Shown here: piece by piece, positions 2,560 through 36,541 of the stretch
Layout of the letters: each line of letters starts with the position of its first letter
How positions within the stretch are numbered: position 1 is the stretch's first letter
Source of the DNA: Rossellomorea sp. y25
GTDB taxonomy: Bacteria > Bacillota > Bacilli > Bacillales > Bacillaceae_B
Assembly (NCBI RefSeq): GCF_038049935.1
Contig: NZ_CP145886.1
Span: 3,705,001-3,769,000 of the forward strand
DNA: 64,000 nucleotides
Direction of reading: 5' to 3'
Notes under the pieces: generated by a model
Database searches by the model: none
The model's input: the letters and a program-made list of their open reading frames with translations, nothing else
What the model was told of the DNA's origin: nothing
Position numbers and translations under genes: made by a program

Positions 2560-3252
2560 ATGGAGCTATTAGATACGACATTCATGATAAAGCTGGGTGT
2601 ATCTGCGGTATTAGGGTTAATCATTGGGCTTGAGAGAGAGTTAAAGAGAAAGCCTGTAGGTTTAAAGACGTCTCTCGTTATATGTATCGTGAGCTGTTTA
2701 TTAACGATTGTCTCTATTGAGTCTGCTTATATTTCGGAGGGATCGGATAAAGTAAATATCACGATGGATCCTTTGCGACTGGCAGCTCAGATTGTTTCAG
2801 GGATTGGTTTCTTAGGTGCCGGTGTCATTTTACGAAGAGGGAATGACAGTATTTCCGGGTTAACGACTGCAGCTATGATCTGGGGAGCGGCAGGAATTGG
2901 AATTGCTGTTGGAGCAGGCTTCTATATGGAAGCTACGGCTGGTGTGATCCTCTTGATTGTCTCCGTTGAAGTGGTGCCGATTATCATTACGTATTTAGGA
3001 CCGAAACGATTGCGGGAAAAAGAGCTGTCTTTGCGTGCTACGATATTGGAGAAAAAAGAGATCAAATCGATTATTGAACGAATTAAAGCAGAAGAAATTT
3101 CTATTGAAAATATCCGCATCAAAGACTTAAAGAATCAGCAGCACCTTTTAGAATTGAAAATCATTGTGGACTTCAGAAAAAAGACCGTAGACATATACTA
3201 TACGATTTCAGAAATAGAAGGGATAAAAGATGTGGAAATTGAAAGCTTATAA
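2560..3252 (+). CDS. MgtC/SapB family membrane protein (copy 1)
   Basis: A 230-residue protein with the MgtC/SapB N-terminal domain: the signature GLIIGLERELKRKPVGLKTS near residues 19-38, GIGFLGAGVILRRG near 86-99 and GLTTAAMIWGAAGIGIAVGAG near 104-124, followed by a soluble ACT-like C-terminal region (about 160-230). The start is ATG 2560 rather than TTG 2557 because it is better spaced from GGAGGGGG. The family is linked to magnesium homeostasis and, in some pathogens, F-type ATPase inhibition; in Bacillus the role is unclear. A second paralogue lies just downstream in the opposite orientation. Confidence 0.9.
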   Translation: MELLDTTFMIKLGVSAVLGLIIGLERELKRKPVGLKTSLVICIVSCLLTIVSIESAYISEGSDKVNITMDPLRLAAQIVSGIGFLGAGVILRRGNDSISGLTTAAMIWGAAGIGIAVGAGFYMEATAGVILLIVSVEVVPIIITYLGPKRLREKELSLRATILEKKEIKSIIERIKAEEISIENIRIKDLKNQQHLLELKIIVDFRKKTVDIYYTISEIEGIKDVEIESL

Positions 3253-3257
3253 ACGTT

Positions 3258-3300
3258 AAGGAATGAGGATGCATGAACACCCTCGTTCCTTTTTATTTTT
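3258..3300. terminator. bidirectional terminator between the two MgtC genes
   Basis: The stem AAGGAATGAGG / CCTCGTTCCTT (one G-U pair) is followed by T-rich sequence on the plus strand. It also overlaps the 3' end of the minus-strand gene, whose stop is at 3293-3295. Confidence 0.7.
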
Positions 3301-4024
3301 TGTGAAGCTGGAACTTTTTTACACATTCTAAATCTTGGACAACTTCCAGTACTTCATTAAACTGAAGGGCACTTGGAGTTAATATAAGAAGGGAATATTT
3401 AAAGGCCTCCACCCCCTCCATTTCATCTCCTTCTTCAATTTGGTATTGAGTGATCTCGATTCCATGCTCATGAAGTGCGTCATTTATAGACGTGATATTC
3501 CCTTTCCCCTTTTGCACGGTCAGACTAAGGAGCAGGAGCTTTTTATGCTTCACTTTCTCCTTATAAAAGTTTTCCAGGTTGTTCAAGAAAAATAACGTCA
3601 CGACGATTACCAGTGTTGTAAAGATAGCTAAATAATACATCCCAATGCCGACTACCAACCCCAAGCCTGCAACAACCCAAATACTGGCGGCAGTGGTTAA
3701 ACCTCTAACCGTCACGCCTCCATGGACCATAATCGTACCCGCACCAAGAAAGCCGATACCCGAAATAACATAGGAGGGAATCCGACTTGGGTCAAAACCA
3801 ACCAATTGAGGGTGTTCGTCTAAAAACGGTTCGAATCCATATAGGGAAACAAGCATCAATAAACAGGAGCCGACACCCACAAGAATATGAGTGCGTAAAC
3901 CAGCCGGGTGATTTTTAAATTCCCTCTCTATACCAATTAAGCCGCTCAGTAGAACGATTAACATAATACGAATAAGAGCAGTGTAAAACTCATCTGGAAT
4001 CTCCAGATAATCTATCATCTCCAT
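3293..4024 (-). CDS. MgtC/SapB family membrane protein (copy 2)
   Basis: A 243-residue paralogue of the preceding protein, with the motifs LIGIEREFKNHPAGLRTH, GIGFLGAGTIMVHGG and GLTTAASIWVVAGLGLVVGIG in the membrane domain and a C-terminal regulatory domain of about 80 residues. ATG 4024 (start MEMIDYLEIP) is chosen because GGAGAGGGG lies 7 nt upstream; the two ATGs 21 and 18 nt further upstream would overlap or precede that site. Convergent with copy 1. The two proteins differ clearly along their whole length, so they are old paralogues and not a recent duplication. Confidence 0.88.
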   Translation of the reverse strand: MEMIDYLEIPDEFYTALIRIMLIVLLSGLIGIEREFKNHPAGLRTHILVGVGSCLLMLVSLYGFEPFLDEHPQLVGFDPSRIPSYVISGIGFLGAGTIMVHGGVTVRGLTTAASIWVVAGLGLVVGIGMYYLAIFTTLVIVVTLFFLNNLENFYKEKVKHKKLLLLSLTVQKGKGNITSINDALHEHGIEITQYQIEEGDEMEGVEAFKYSLLILTPSALQFNEVLEVVQDLECVKKFQLHKK

Positions 4025-4090
4025 AGCTTTTCCCCTCTCCATCATCTACCTATACTTTTTACCTGGAACGAACCTTTTAAAACGCAAAAA

Positions 4091-4120
4091 TCAAAAAAAC
4101 CAGGTGGAATTCACCTGGTT
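4091..4120 (-). terminator. terminator of the fructose operon
   Basis: On the reverse strand the stem AACCAGGTG / CACCTGGTT around a 4-5 nt loop is followed by a run of seven T. It lies just after the fruA stop codon. Confidence 0.88.
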
Positions 4121-4130
4121 CTTTCATGAA

Positions 4131-6002
4131 TCATTTAATCGGCTTCTTTAATAACCCAACCATCACGGCTGTAATAACAGAGCCAATCAGTACTGCTAAC
4201 AGATATAAGAACGGATTCCCTTCTACTACCAGGAAAACAAATAATCCACCGTGGGGGGCAGGTAAACCAATCCCAAAGAACATCGCTAACGCTCCTGCAA
4301 CCGCAGAACCAGTCACAATTGAAGGGATGACCCGGAATGGATCGGCTGCAGCAAACGGAATCGCTCCTTCTGTAATAAAAGATGCTCCCATAAAGTATGC
4401 CGCGATACCCGCTTTTCGCTCATTATCATTGAACTTCTTCTTGAATATTGTCGTTGCCATGGCCAACCCCAGTGGCGGTACCATTCCACCCGCCATGATG
4501 GCGGCATGGGGAGCAAGGTTTCCTCCTTCAATCATGGCAATGCCGAATGTAAAGGCAGCTTTGTTGATCGGACCCCCCATGTCGACTGCCATCATTCCAC
4601 CAAGAACCAGTCCGAGTAAAATCAGGTTCCCTGTTCCCAGTCCATCCAACCAGTTTTGAATCCCCGTATTCACTGCACTCAGTGGCTCCACAAGGAACTG
4701 AAGCATGATGAATCCAGTAATGAAAATCCCCAGCAACGGATAGATCAATACAGGTTTGATTCCTTCCAATGAAGGAGGGAAATTGTTTGTTAAACGCTTG
4801 ATTCCGAGAACTACATAACCTGCTAAGAAACCGGCAATAATTCCACCTAAGAACCCGCTTTGACCCGTTGCAGCAATCAACCCGCCAATCATACCAGGGG
4901 CAAATCCTGGCCGGTCAGCTATACTCATGGCAATGAATCCCGCTAAGACAGGCACCATTAAGTAAAAGGCATTATCTCCGCCGATTTTCATTAGCATGGC
5001 TGCAAATTCATTATACTCAGGAGAATCAGGATTCGCTGACTGAATGCCGAATAAGAACGAGATCGCAATCAAGATCCCTCCCCCTACAACGAATGGAAGC
5101 ATGTTGGAAACACCATTCATCAGATGCTTGTAAAAGCCTGACTTTTGTTTTTTCTCAGGACCAGCATGAGTCTCACCGGATCGCTCTCCACCTTTATATA
5201 GAGGCGCATCTTGTTTCATAGCCTGATTCAATAATTCTTCAGGACGCCTAATCGCTTCTGCAACAGGAACTTCAATCACGTGCTTTCCTTTAAAACGATT
5301 CATTTCCACTTTCGTATCGGCAGCTACGATTATAGCTACAGCGTTTACAATTTCTTCAGAAGTTAAGACGTTCTTCGCTCCACCGGATCCGTTCGTCTCT
5401 ACTTTTAGATTTACACCAATTTCTTTCGCTTTGGCTTTCAACGCATCTGCTGCCATATACGTATGAGCAATCCCTGTAGGACATGCCGTTACAGCCAGGA
5501 CCTTCCCTACGTTTGTGGAAGATTCAGCAGGAATCTCTTCCTCGTCCTCTCGATCATGAACATTAATAATCTCTAAAACTTCTTCTTTTGATGAAGCATT
5601 CACTAACGCTTTGCGGACATCGGAGTCCATCAGCATAGAGGAAAGACGGCTTAACGCTTCTAGATGTGTTTGATTGGCCCCTTCTGTTGCTGCAATCATG
5701 AAGAACAAATGAGCAGGAGCCCCATCGAGAGATTCATAGTCTACTCCATGTGCTGATTTGCCGAATGCAATGGCAGGTGATTTGACTGCCGATGTTTTCG
5801 CGTGAGGAATGGCGATGCCTTCCCCAATACCTGTTGTACTTTGTGCTTCACGATTAAGAATCGCTTGCTTAAATTCTTTAGGGTCCTTTAGCTTCCCGCT
5901 TTTATCTAATACGGAAACCAATTCGTCAATGACTCCGGTTTTTGATGTAGAAGATATATTTAGCTGAATCGTATCTTTCGTTAGTAATTCAGTAATTCTC
6001 AT
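4131..6002 (-). CDS. fruA: fructose-specific PTS enzyme IIABC
   Basis: A 623-residue PTS permease that imports fructose and releases fructose 1-phosphate. The domain order is IIA (residues 1-150, phospho-His67 in GIAIPHAKT), IIB (about 165-265, phospho-Cys174 in VTACPTGIAHT) and a multi-helix IIC domain (about 290-620). The length fits the Bacillus FruA family. It is the last gene of fruR-fruK-fruA, 12 nt after fruK, with GGGGGGAACAAAC ahead of the ATG. Control is by FruR and CcpA through the promoter upstream of fruR. The assignment is firm from domain order and operon partners. Confidence 0.97.
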   Translation of the reverse strand: MRITELLTKDTIQLNISSTSKTGVIDELVSVLDKSGKLKDPKEFKQAILNREAQSTTGIGEGIAIPHAKTSAVKSPAIAFGKSAHGVDYESLDGAPAHLFFMIAATEGANQTHLEALSRLSSMLMDSDVRKALVNASSKEEVLEIINVHDREDEEEIPAESSTNVGKVLAVTACPTGIAHTYMAADALKAKAKEIGVNLKVETNGSGGAKNVLTSEEIVNAVAIIVAADTKVEMNRFKGKHVIEVPVAEAIRRPEELLNQAMKQDAPLYKGGERSGETHAGPEKKQKSGFYKHLMNGVSNMLPFVVGGGILIAISFLFGIQSANPDSPEYNEFAAMLMKIGGDNAFYLMVPVLAGFIAMSIADRPGFAPGMIGGLIAATGQSGFLGGIIAGFLAGYVVLGIKRLTNNFPPSLEGIKPVLIYPLLGIFITGFIMLQFLVEPLSAVNTGIQNWLDGLGTGNLILLGLVLGGMMAVDMGGPINKAAFTFGIAMIEGGNLAPHAAIMAGGMVPPLGLAMATTIFKKKFNDNERKAGIAAYFMGASFITEGAIPFAAADPFRVIPSIVTGSAVAGALAMFFGIGLPAPHGGLFVFLVVEGNPFLYLLAVLIGSVITAVMVGLLKKPIK

Positions 6003-33668: not shown

Positions 33669-34862
33669 TTAAGATAATACTTTTTTGATTCTTTCGATTG
33701 CCCAATCCAGGTCTTCTTGTGAGATGACAAGTGGTGGAGCAAAACGAATGACTGTATCATGTGTCTCTTTACAAAGCAGTCCTTCTTCTTTCAGCTGTTC
33801 ACAGTATTTACGGGCTGGTTCGTTAAGTTCCACTCCAATAAATAAACCACTACCACGAACTTCCTTAATCATAGGATTATCTATCTCACGAAGTTTACTC
33901 ATAAAGTATTCTCCCATTTGAAGAGAACGCTCTGCCAGATTCTCATCGATCAGTACATCCAGGGATGCTACAGAAACCGCACATGCCATTGGATTTCCTC
34001 CAAAAGTAGAACCATGGGAGCCTGGGTTGAATACACCTAACACTTCTTCATTGGCAACAACACAAGAAATCGGGAATACCCCTCCACCAAGTGCTTTTCC
34101 AAGGATGTACATATCAGGGTCAACATCTTCCCACTCACACGCAAACATTTTACCAGAGCGTGCTAGACCTGCCTGAATTTCATCTGCAATGAATAGGACG
34201 TTGTTTTCTTTACATAATTCATATGCTGCTTTCATGAAGCCTTTAGGAGGGAATACAATCCCTGCTTCTCCTTGGATAGGTTCGATTAGGAAAGCTGCTG
34301 TATTTGGTGTAATGGCGGATTTCAATGCTTCCAAGTCACCGTAAGGAATCAAGTTGATTCCCGGAAGCATCGGACCGAAGCCACGCTTGTATTCTTCTTC
34401 TGAAGAGAGGGAAACAGCTGTCATCGTTCTTCCGTGGAAGTTCCCGTTACATGCGATGATTTCCGCACTGTTTTCGGCTACACCCTTCACATCATATGCC
34501 CAGCGGCGAGCTGTCTTGATCGCTGTTTCCACTGCTTCAGCACCAGTGTTCATTGGAAGAGCCATGTCTTTACCGGTCATCTTACAAATCTTCTCGTACC
34601 AAGGAGCCAATTGATCGTTGTGGAAAGCACGTGAAGTCAATGTCACACGATCTGCTTGATCTTTTAATGCCTGTATGATCTTTGGATGACGATGTCCCTG
34701 ATTTACAGCTGAATAGGCGCTAAGCATATCCATATACTTATTCCCTTCAGGATCCTTAACCCATACACCCTCTGCTTCTGAAATAACGATTGGTAGGGGA
34801 TGATAATTTTTCGCACCATACTTTTCCGTTTGTTCGATAATCGAATGAGTACTTACTGCCAT
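33669..34862 (-). CDS. rocD: ornithine aminotransferase
   Basis: A 397-residue PLP-dependent class III aminotransferase converting ornithine and 2-oxoglutarate to glutamate semialdehyde and glutamate. The PLP lysine is in [31 protein letters not shown] and [17 protein letters not shown] bind the cofactor. Closely matches B. subtilis RocD (401 residues). RBS AAGGAGG. It is divergent from the RocR-like regulator, and its upstream region holds two 19-bp inverted repeats, one lying inside a sigma-A-like promoter. Confidence 0.96.
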
Positions 34863-34926
34863 GAAAGTTCCTCCTTGTTTAAAACATTCTATTTTTAAAG
34901 GCTTATGACGAGGTTAGTTAACATAT

Positions 34927-34945
34927 ATGCAAAAAAAGTTTGCAT
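34927..34945. promoter_or_regulatory. 19-bp inverted repeat in the rocD-rocR intergenic region (distal to rocR)
   Basis: ATGCAAA-AAAAG-TTTGCAT, 7-bp perfect arms, lies 65 bp upstream of the rocD start. With the second copy 44 bp away (about four helical turns) it is a candidate site for the RocR-like protein. Confidence 0.6.
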
Positions 34946-34967
34946 TTAGAAAACCCTTACACTTATA

Positions 34968-34996
34968 ATAATGCAAAAGATAGTTGCATTTTTCAA
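34968..34996 (-). promoter_or_regulatory. candidate rocD promoter containing the second inverted repeat
   Basis: On the reverse strand TTGAAA (34991-34996) and CATTAT (34968-34973) are 17 bp apart. The spacer and -10 region coincide with ATGCAA-AAGATAG-TTGCAT (34971-34989). No convincing sigma-54 -24/-12 element (TGGCAC-N5-TTGCA) was found: the nearest GG-N10-GC, on the reverse strand at about 34942-34955, lacks the rest of the -24 box. A protein bound at this repeat would cover a sigma-A promoter. Confidence 0.5.
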
Positions 34997-35158
34997 GAGT
35001 TTTTTAAAATTTTTTATAAATCCGCTCTTTTTGCCAATTTAATTGCTTAACAGTCATCAATTCAGTAACGGACGGAAGGAAAATTTGCGCAAATAGATGC
35101 TTGATAGACGATACGTTTTGCAGTAAGACCTAATGAAAAAGAAGAGGAGAGAGACAGC

Positions 35159-36541
35159 ATGCTGGAATCAGAAAAACGTTTGTATATGTACGAAAAAGTC
35201 GCTGAACATCTCGAATCAGGCATACATGTCATCGATTCTACCGGAAGAACCATCATCTACAATCGAAAAATGCGCGAAATCGAAGGGATGGAAATTGAAG
35301 ACGTCCTGGATAAAAATTTGCTGGATGTTTTCCAATTTCACTCTGAAGAAGAAAGTACCCTTCTTAAAGTTCTGAACACAAAGGAACCAACCCTTAATGT
35401 GAAACAAACTTATTTTAATATGAACGGAATCGAAATCACGACGATGAACGACACCTTTCCGATCTTTCACGATGAAGTGCTAATTGGGGCGATTGAAATT
35501 GCCAGAGACATCACGAAACTCGAAAAGGTGATGAGAGATCATATAAATAAGCGTCCGAGCAGTTTATTTACCTTTGACAGCATCATCGGTAAACATCACC
35601 GACTGCAGGACGCCGTCGAAACCGGAAAGCGGGCGACAAGGACGTCTTCCCCTGTGTTGATATGTGGTGAAATCGGTACCGGAAAGGAGCTTTTTGCACA
35701 AAGCATCCACAACGACAGCGCCCGTGCCAATCGCCCTTTCATCACCCAGAATTGCTCGTCACTACATGATGATAAGCTAGAAGAAATCCTGTTTCACGAG
35801 GAGCGAAAGGACAGCAATCCGGAAGAACACCGCCCCTCCCTCTTCCAACAAGCACAGGGAGGCACACTGCTACTGGACGAAATTAACTCATTACCCCTTT
35901 CCCTTCAAGAGAAGCTGCTAAACTTCTTTTCCCAAGGGACGGACCTTCCATATGATGTGCGGGTGATGGCGACTGTGAACGAGGATCCCATCGACGCAAT
36001 TGCAGAAGGGCGGTTATTAAAGGACCTCTATTACAGGCTGAGCATTGTTTCAATCTTTATCCCCTCTCTCCGCTCGAGAAAAGAAGATTTACCGGAGATT
36101 GTGAACTATTTCATTGACCAGTTCAACCACCATTTCGCTATGGGTATTAAAGGGATTTCGGATGAAGTGAGTGAAATTTTCCACCAGTATGACTGGCCAG
36201 GCAATGTGAGGGAGCTTGAGCATGTCATTGAAGGAGCATTTAGCTTGGTGGGGTTTGAAGAAGAGATTGGCTTCAATCATCTTCCATTCGGATTCAGGCA
36301 GAGGATTCATCATACTTCGACAGGAGAAAATAGTCAGGATGAATCGGAGTTTCTTTACCAATCTGGAACCGAAATCAAGCCGTTGGAAATTTTCATGGAA
36401 GAAGCTGAAACCTATTATATTCAAAAAGCGTTGAAATACCATGACTTTAATATCACTAAAACAGCGAAATCCCTTGGTATGAGCAGGCAGAATCTGCAGT
36501 ATCGGATACGGAAGTATAGGATTGAGCGGAATGCGTTTTAA
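35159..36541 (+). CDS. rocR: RocR-like enhancer-binding protein lacking the sigma-54 contact loop
   Basis: A 460-residue protein with an N-terminal PAS-like sensor domain (about 8-120), an AAA+ domain (about 137-370) and a Fis-type helix-turn-helix (about 430-452, FNITKTAKSLGMSRQNLQYR). Walker A GEIGTGKE (170-177), Walker B TLLLDE and arginine finger YYRLS are intact. However, the segment where the family has GAFTGA is HEERKDSNPEEHRPS (213-227), and the second loop region is about eight residues shorter than in B. subtilis RocR. It may therefore not work with sigma-54. Divergent from rocD; RBS GAGGAG. Confidence 0.9.
   Translation: MLESEKRLYMYEKVAEHLESGIHVIDSTGRTIIYNRKMREIEGMEIEDVLDKNLLDVFQFHSEEESTLLKVLNTKEPTLNVKQTYFNMNGIEITTMNDTFPIFHDEVLIGAIEIARDITKLEKVMRDHINKRPSSLFTFDSIIGKHHRLQDAVETGKRATRTSSPVLICGEIGTGKELFAQSIHNDSARANRPFITQNCSSLHDDKLEEILFHEERKDSNPEEHRPSLFQQAQGGTLLLDEINSLPLSLQEKLLNFFSQGTDLPYDVRVMATVNEDPIDAIAEGRLLKDLYYRLSIVSIFIPSLRSRKEDLPEIVNYFIDQFNHHFAMGIKGISDEVSEIFHQYDWPGNVRELEHVIEGAFSLVGFEEEIGFNHLPFGFRQRIHHTSTGENSQDESEFLYQSGTEIKPLEIFMEEAETYYIQKALKYHDFNITKTAKSLGMSRQNLQYRIRKYRIERNAF

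Follow-up and report, generated by a model that had tools for sequence, protein, structure and literature searches.

Introduction

Activation through sigma-54 needs a matching promoter, loop and ATPase, and an exit from the sigma-54 system is an evolutionary puzzle because the intermediate should be dead. The question of how such an exit can be made is raised by a rocR-like gene in a stretch of 64,000 nucleotides from the genome of Rossellomorea sp. y25 (the window, in whose numbering all coordinates are given). From the letters alone, its product had been predicted to have lost the GAFTGA loop and possibly to regulate a sigma-A promoter instead.

GAFTGA is called invariant in sigma-54-specific proteins in extracts from a recent survey (PMC12316311). 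TyrR, DhaR and HupR are related to enhancer-binding proteins, have no GAFTGA and are described as acting at sigma-70 promoters; for VpsR and B. subtilis YplP, dependence on sigma-54 is considered improbable (extracts from PMC3162934). Expression of rocDEF in B. subtilis requires both SigL and RocR, and a cryptic SigA-type promoter of the same operon was activated by point mutations in proline-bypass suppressors (extracts from PMC9245794).

Results and Discussion

The RocR-like protein and its motifs

Altogether 191 rocR loci, taken from named genomes and from further genomes of the order, were compared, 139 of them with distinct proteins, and 85 of these 139 carry a -24/-12 site with a score of 15.0–25.5 before the divergent gene (sigma-54-type loci). 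The features of the window gene are the following.

35159..36541, plus strand: rocR-like gene, 460 amino acids, open reading frame and translation without a stop
35666..35689, plus strand: Walker A, GEIGTGKE (GETGTGKE or GDTGTGKE in the 85 sigma-54-type loci)
35795..35839, plus strand: loop 1 codons (residues 213–227), GAFTGA replaced by HEERKDSNPEEHRPS in the alignment of 139 distinct loci
35930..35956, plus strand: loop 2 (pre-sensor I), shortened by 8 residues relative to sigma-54-type loci
36014..36043, plus strand: arginine-finger motif LLKDLYYRLS, first arginine lost in the alignment including ZraR
36449..36517, plus strand: Fis-type HTH, under strong constraint (dN/dS 0.018 over residues 405–457)

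The Pfam layout of the protein was PAS, Sigma54_activat, AAA_lid_14 and HTH_8, that is, a PAS sensor, an AAA+ domain, a lid and a Fis-type HTH. RocR and arginine utilization regulatory protein were names found among its listed relatives, the nearest named ones being Rossellomorea proteins (R. aquimaris JM7, 94%). Together with the divergent roc gene and the GCAA-N7-TTGC palindromes between the two genes, these are the features of a RocR orthologue. No match to a plasmid copy of the gene was obtained in the search.

Loop 1 reads HEERKDSNPEEHRPS where relatives have GTKKGAFTGAIERPG, with unchanged length, and the stretch of loop 2 aligned to residues 246–268 has 23 residues compared with 31 in all 85 sigma-54-type loci. 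Both the loss of GAFTGA at equal length and the shortening of the pre-sensor I loop by about eight residues had been predicted, and both were borne out. As had also been stated, the protein keeps Walker A, Walker B (LLLDE) and the Fis-type HTH. The description of the arginine finger as intact needs correction, because the first of the two arginines of LRKDLYYRL is replaced by leucine (LLKDLYYRL), at a place where the solved ZraR has FRQDLYYRL. In PspF and NtrC1 both arginines of this motif serve ATP hydrolysis. Judged from the alignment, the AAA+ domain of the window protein is degraded.

GAFTGA, the full pair of finger arginines and a target -24/-12 promoter, all features of a sigma-54 enhancer-binding protein, are lacking here, and what is found is the enhancer-binding-protein layout without GAFTGA. 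A single strong match to sigma-54 was obtained in the 4.63-Mb genome (one contig), and seven activator-domain matches exceeded 100 bits; among these RocR scores 128.6 bits, far below the other six (226.6–250.1 bits).

Conservation of the change in the genus

All 36 Rossellomorea genomes have one rocR match each (loci L016–L051), GAFTGA is missing in 34 of them, and the composite promoter described below is present in all 36. An assembly error or a strain-specific loss was ruled out by the 34 genomes without GAFTGA. The original prediction had named closely related strains with an intact GAFTGA as evidence against it. To the letter two such genomes exist, L044 and L046 (the latter the same as L073, Rossellomorea sp. 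BNER), but in sense they do not qualify, being only about 61% identical and having the promoter already replaced. The search for sigL that had been proposed found the gene in the window's genome and in 36 of 36 genus genomes, so that loss of sigL as the cause in the window's genome was ruled out.

The promoter region upstream of rocD

The -24/-12 elements were scored with a matrix for which 12 of the 16 sites listed for B. thuringiensis in Table 2 of PMC4428206 were used. The scan covered the divergent strand over at most 700 bases upstream of rocR, with the opposite strand as control (maximum 11.5). At the window locus the best score was 5.7 on the rocD strand and 8.4 on the control strand, compared with 15.0–25.5 in the 85 loci, in agreement with the earlier statement that no good -24/-12 element lies upstream of rocD. 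A surviving element was also rejected: the only candidate, TTGGCA without a -12 partner at 35021–35037, reads CGGCA in the nearest relative (L052) and was taken as chance or a relic. In its place the following features were found.

33669..34862, minus strand: rocD (ornithine aminotransferase), divergent target gene, open reading frame named from its place and matches
34929..34943, minus strand: UAS2, second GCAA-N7-TTGC palindrome, 44 bp from UAS1 and downstream of the expected start, putative RocR site
34948..34961, minus strand: conserved block TGTAAGGGTTTTCT at the expected transcript start, identical in 46/62 clade loci
34965..34970, minus strand: overlapping TATTAT, 20 bp from the -35 hexamer, in 57/62 loci at a fixed distance from UAS1
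34968..34973, minus strand: -10-like hexamer CATTAT, 17 bp from the -35 hexamer (CATTAT 60/62, CATCAT 2/62)
34973..34987, minus strand: UAS1, GCAA-N7-TTGC palindrome within the -35/-10 spacer, putative RocR site
34991..34996, minus strand: -35-like hexamer TTGAAA of the rocD-strand promoter (TTGAAA 60/62, TTGAAT 1/62 clade loci at the same distance from UAS1)

In 48 of the 139 loci no -24/-12 score exceeded 7.6 (four of the 48 have less than 700 bases upstream, 176–550) and a composite block was held in common: the -24/-12 element is gone, TTGAAA stands before the first palindrome and CATTATTATA after it. Six GAFTGA loci without a -24/-12 element in the 700 bases (L088, L164, L188, L190, L193 and L197) were excluded from both groups; two of them, L188 and L197, are GAFTGA-bearing RocR-like genes without such an element on the divergent strand. 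With 14 added loci, 62 clade loci were used for promoter counts. Their block reads cTTGAAAAA.GCAA..atcTTTTGCATTATTATA..tgtAagGgTTTtct, and 61 of the 62 have a sigma-A-type TTGAA(A/T)-N17-CAT(T/C)AT around the first palindrome, hexamers being counted at fixed distances from UAS1 (the gap in L126 is 3 bp shorter). The distance from UAS1 to UAS2 is 44 bp in 56 loci and 43 bp in three, and the other three have no exact second palindrome.

Among the 85 sigma-54-type loci an exact GCAA-N7-TTGC pair lies 40–47 bp apart in 36, 30–34 bp apart in 10 and at other spacing in 6; one exact palindrome is present in 23 and none in 10. The commonest position of the -24/-12 element was 50–69 bp beyond the last palindrome (43 of 75 palindrome-bearing loci). 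Both flanks together, TTGAA before and xATNAT after, were absent from every exact palindrome of these 85 loci. The first divergent gene is rocA or rocD in 60/62 clade loci, and rocA, rocD or gdh in 83/85 sigma-54-type loci. In the whole order the composite pattern occurs in 41 of 397 genomes, once each and, judged from coordinates or retrieved loci, always adjoining rocR, and the reversed pattern in none; it is not due to chance.

Within the window's genome the exact UAS pair and the exact composite site each occur once, so the search for further RocR targets gave no second exact copy of either. With up to three mismatches the composite site gave 9 forward and 4 reverse matches (control, 1 and 5). 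The -24/-12 pattern has two exact matches genome-wide, and 28 forward and 18 reverse matches with at most one mismatch (control, 20 and 33).

Some further observations were made around these sites. The block TGTAAGGGTTTTCT (34948–34961, minus strand) is cre-like, with one central mismatch to the cre consensus, or possibly the site of another regulator. An exact palindrome, ATTTGCGCAAAT, lies at 35083–35094 between UAS1 and rocR, is similar in some close relatives, and may be another half-site. The gene rocA, the first roc gene in 43/62 clade loci, is absent beside rocR in the window (33669–36541), and no gene of the window's genome reaches the TIGR01237 cut-off (best 380.4 compared with 659.65 bits). 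In L081 (Bacillus aerolatus; match 3001–4380) a short 5′ piece of rocA was apparently left between the promoter and rocD, as after a recent rocA deletion.

Readings of the composite block

If CATTAT is the -10 hexamer, transcription of rocD would by arithmetic start near 34961, UAS1 would then lie at about -26 to -12 and UAS2 at about +19 to +33. A protein so placed would exclude polymerase, and binding downstream of the start is a common mark of repressors, so that repression by RocR is the reading we favour, with somewhat more belief than doubt. The earlier reading had left repression out; the geometry of the sites suggests that RocR may now repress.

The block can also be read as a promoter that RocR activates, either by bending or twisting an over-long TTGAAA-N20-TATTAT spacer in the manner of MerR, or by contacting polymerase from UAS1 in the manner of TyrR. 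MerR-type promoters have a 19–20 bp spacer with an internal site, and here the 17-bp and the 20-bp readings are both conserved. TATTAT or TATAAT is found at 20 bp in 59/62 loci; L126 has TTGAAT-N17-TATTAT, derived from its shorter gap. Activation is moreover the role inherited from a RocR of the B. subtilis type, and Caulobacter NtrC, which lacks GAFTGA, both activates and represses promoters of the sigma-70 type, with ATP binding and hydrolysis reported as necessary for ammonium assimilation (extracts from PMC10274813). The 17-bp register, however, keeps A at position 2 and T at position 6 in 62/62 loci at the fixed distance from UAS1, the 20-bp register departs in three loci (CATTAT, CATTGT and TATATA), and UAS2 lies downstream of the expected start. 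Activation of a sigma-A promoter by RocR is accordingly regarded as possible, though at perhaps half the weight of repression or less.

It may be asked whether the block is mainly the promoter or autoregulatory site of rocR itself, with rocA or rocD read from another, unrecognised start. The rocR strand carries TATAAT at 34964–34969, in the same place as the rocD-strand -10 candidates and with UAS1 and UAS2 beside it, and rocR is under negative autoregulation in B. subtilis; part of the conservation of the block may on account of this TATAAT serve rocR. This arrangement as the main function is nevertheless improbable: the TTGAAA that flanks UAS1 towards rocR is kept in 60/62 loci; read on the rocA/rocD strand it would be a -35 hexamer, and no role for it is evident on the opposite strand.

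Loop loss and the probable order of events

The loop motif of the 85 -24/-12 loci is GAFTGA in 56, GAFTGS in 26, GAFSGA in two and GGFTGA in one (L118). GAFTGA is missing in 46 of the 48 loci with a replaced promoter, so that loop type matches promoter type in 131 of the 133 classed loci (6/139 unclassed; Fisher 9e-34, computed on loci that are related and not independent). A single branch separated the replaced-promoter rows from the others in three unrooted trees built from subsets of 104, 55 and 74 rows, one of them without the AAA+ columns 135–300, with support of 99, 100/99 and 100/99. Replacement of the promoter thus appears as one event, and the loci count as non-independent for that reason.

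Inside the replaced-promoter group, L044 and L073 combine the new promoter with an intact GAFTGA, which argues that the promoter probably changed first; the simplest order is probably promoter change followed by loop loss. The loop reads NAYPGA in L137 and STFTES in Bacillus seohaeanensis P0018 (judged from the protein alone), and both resemble stages of partial decay. GAFTGA may have been lost once or several times independently; AU tests of this point gave p of 0.046 with one tree and 0.25 with another.

Selection on the RocR domains

Pooled Nei–Gojobori dN/dS values from 8 Rossellomorea pairs were compared with those from 14 sigma-54-type pairs. The values were 0.57 and 0.010, respectively, for loop 1 (15 codons only), 0.076 and 0.028 for the rest of the AAA+ domain, 0.040 and 0.059 for PAS, and 0.018 and 0.089 for the HTH. 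Two other replaced-promoter groups, with two pairs each, gave 0.42 and 0.24 for loop 1. In the single pair with both an intact GAFTGA and the new promoter, no amino-acid change is seen in loop 1 and the AAA+ dN/dS is 0.026; this constraint suggests that its protein may still use the ATPase or have other targets. Mean pairwise identity over residues 140–300 was 0.616 in the clade and 0.806 outside it, and PAS and HTH are more alike within the clade.

By these ratios selection maintains RocR and holds its DNA-binding part more tightly than before, while the lost sigma-54 contact is nearly free. That rocR is a functionless, decaying remnant would be in keeping with the losses in loop 1, loop 2 and the AAA+ residues of many clade members, but it is scarcely credible beside the strong purifying selection on PAS and HTH, a frame open in all 48 + 14 clade loci examined, and the presence of the gene throughout the genus.

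Clade genomes without a sigma-54 match

A sigma-54 match was found in 48 of the 61 listed clade genomes and in none of the other 13, which comprise 11 of genus group g39 (probably mainly Jeotgalibacillus), G106 and G137. All 13 are 97–100% complete and have both the composite promoter and RocR. Their RocR proteins have lost most of loop 1. In place of DE, Walker B has GH in seven, DH in four, EN in one and TH in one, with the second residue changed in 13/13, and the finger motif LRKDLYYRL has another residue for its second arginine in 13/13. Similar changes of the Walker B and finger type occur in relatives that keep sigma-54 (L189, L249 and L250).

Among 183 genomes with RocR at 1e-110, sigma-54 was missing from 11 of 39 bearing the composite compared with 2 of 144 without an exact composite, the two being the incomplete genomes G188 (80%) and G238 (62%); the cross-count of composite against sigma-54 absence, made by hand on genomes that are not independent, gave Fisher 7e-7. 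G264 and G305, with no sigma-54 and a RocR below the 1e-110 threshold, complete the 13. G073, of the same genus group as the 11, has sigL and RocR and no exact composite match.

A test of rocD expression in a sigL mutant had been proposed, and the persistence of rocR and the new promoter in 13 genomes without a sigma-54 match is its equivalent in nature. The window's RocR orthologue very likely works without sigma-54, because the comparison of loci and genomes documents that the promoter was replaced, that loop 1 was lost and set free of constraint, and that RocR persists where no sigma-54 is found. That RocR might still activate through sigma-54 by some substitute for GAFTGA draws on the sigL gene kept in the window's genome and across the genus; with no target -24/-12 element, a nearly unconstrained loop 1 and the 13 clade genomes against it, this is highly unlikely.

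Two observations on the same genomes may be added. Several Jeotgalibacillus relatives of RocR are named sigma 54-interacting regulators, while no sigma-54 match was found in the 11 g39 genomes, G106 and G137, all of them nearly complete. The sigma-54 match of G064 (G064:C18:70097-70609; 1.8e-36) is weaker than those of the other 47 clade genomes with a match and may be decaying; its genus group also contains G106, where no match was obtained.

Proposed mechanism

The original inference of a move to a sigma-A promoter gains support from the comparison, that is, from the missing -24/-12 element, the sigma-A-type hexamers, the free loop 1 and the 13 genomes without sigma-54. In the ancestor of the clade, which includes Rossellomorea, Jeotgalibacillus, Falsibacillus and Pseudobacillus, the -24/-12 element before rocA or rocD would have given way to a sigma-A-type TTGAAA-N17-CATTAT, formed around the RocR-type palindrome UAS1 with UAS2 kept 44 bp further on. 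Decay of GAFTGA would have come next, followed by partial decay of loop 2 and of the residues for ATP hydrolysis; some lineages would finally have lost sigma-54 altogether. RocR dimers on UAS1 and UAS2 would now keep sigma-A polymerase out until the PAS domain senses arginine, ornithine or citrulline. Use of the promoter by sigma-A, binding of RocR to both palindromes, the identity of the inducers and the direction of regulation are points we infer.

Repression would need no new protein contact, and the negative autoregulation of rocR in B. subtilis would mean that RocR was already capable of it. Two features fit this mechanism poorly. TATTAT at 20 bp is kept in 57/62 loci and favoured in L126, as would suit an activator that reshapes DNA, and Walker A and B are kept in most clade members, which plain repression would not need. 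Taken as a whole, a sigma-54-independent RocR at a replaced promoter, now most likely a repressor, is the explanation we prefer, rather more probable than all others together.

Comparison with known systems

The window's RocR resembles that of B. subtilis in being divergent from rocD or rocA, in its PAS-AAA+-Fis HTH layout and in its RocR-named relatives, the sequence comparison being with the 85 sigma-54-type loci rather than with B. subtilis RocR. It differs in having no GAFTGA, no target -24/-12 element and palindromes in and downstream of the core promoter. With the cryptic rocDEF promoter of B. subtilis, as described in the extracts from PMC9245794, it shares the takeover of one operon by a sigma-A promoter, which is presumed here for the window's locus; that case, however, is a laboratory suppressor with the sigma-54 regulator intact.

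Caulobacter and Rhodobacter NtrC, HupR, TyrR, DhaR and VpsR, so far as the extracts describe them, are alike in the loss of GAFTGA and in sigma-70-type promoters (presumed here for RocR), and repression is reported for Caulobacter NtrC. Unlike them, the RocR clade has intermediates, changed ATPase residues, genomes without a found sigma-54, and a promoter change seemingly before loop loss. Among the open-licence literature matches listed, no paper brought together RocR, GAFTGA loss and a sigma-A switch. GAFTGA-less relatives at sigma-70 promoters were thus already known, and the new elements are the apparent sequence of steps, the intermediates still living, the decay of the ATPase and the persistence without a found sigma-54.

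Conclusions

A sigma-54 activator may here have been turned into a sigma-A repressor without any new contact: the DNA round its fixed sites would have become a promoter, the useless loop and ATPase would have decayed stepwise, and two lineages could then have dropped sigma-54, an account that we put forward with belief and doubt in equal measure. The clade suggests an order of exit, from promoter to loop to ATPase and in places to the sigma factor itself, and appears to hold living examples of these steps away from sigma-54. It also carries a warning for annotation, namely that regulators annotated as sigma-54-interacting occur in genomes in which no sigma-54 is found.
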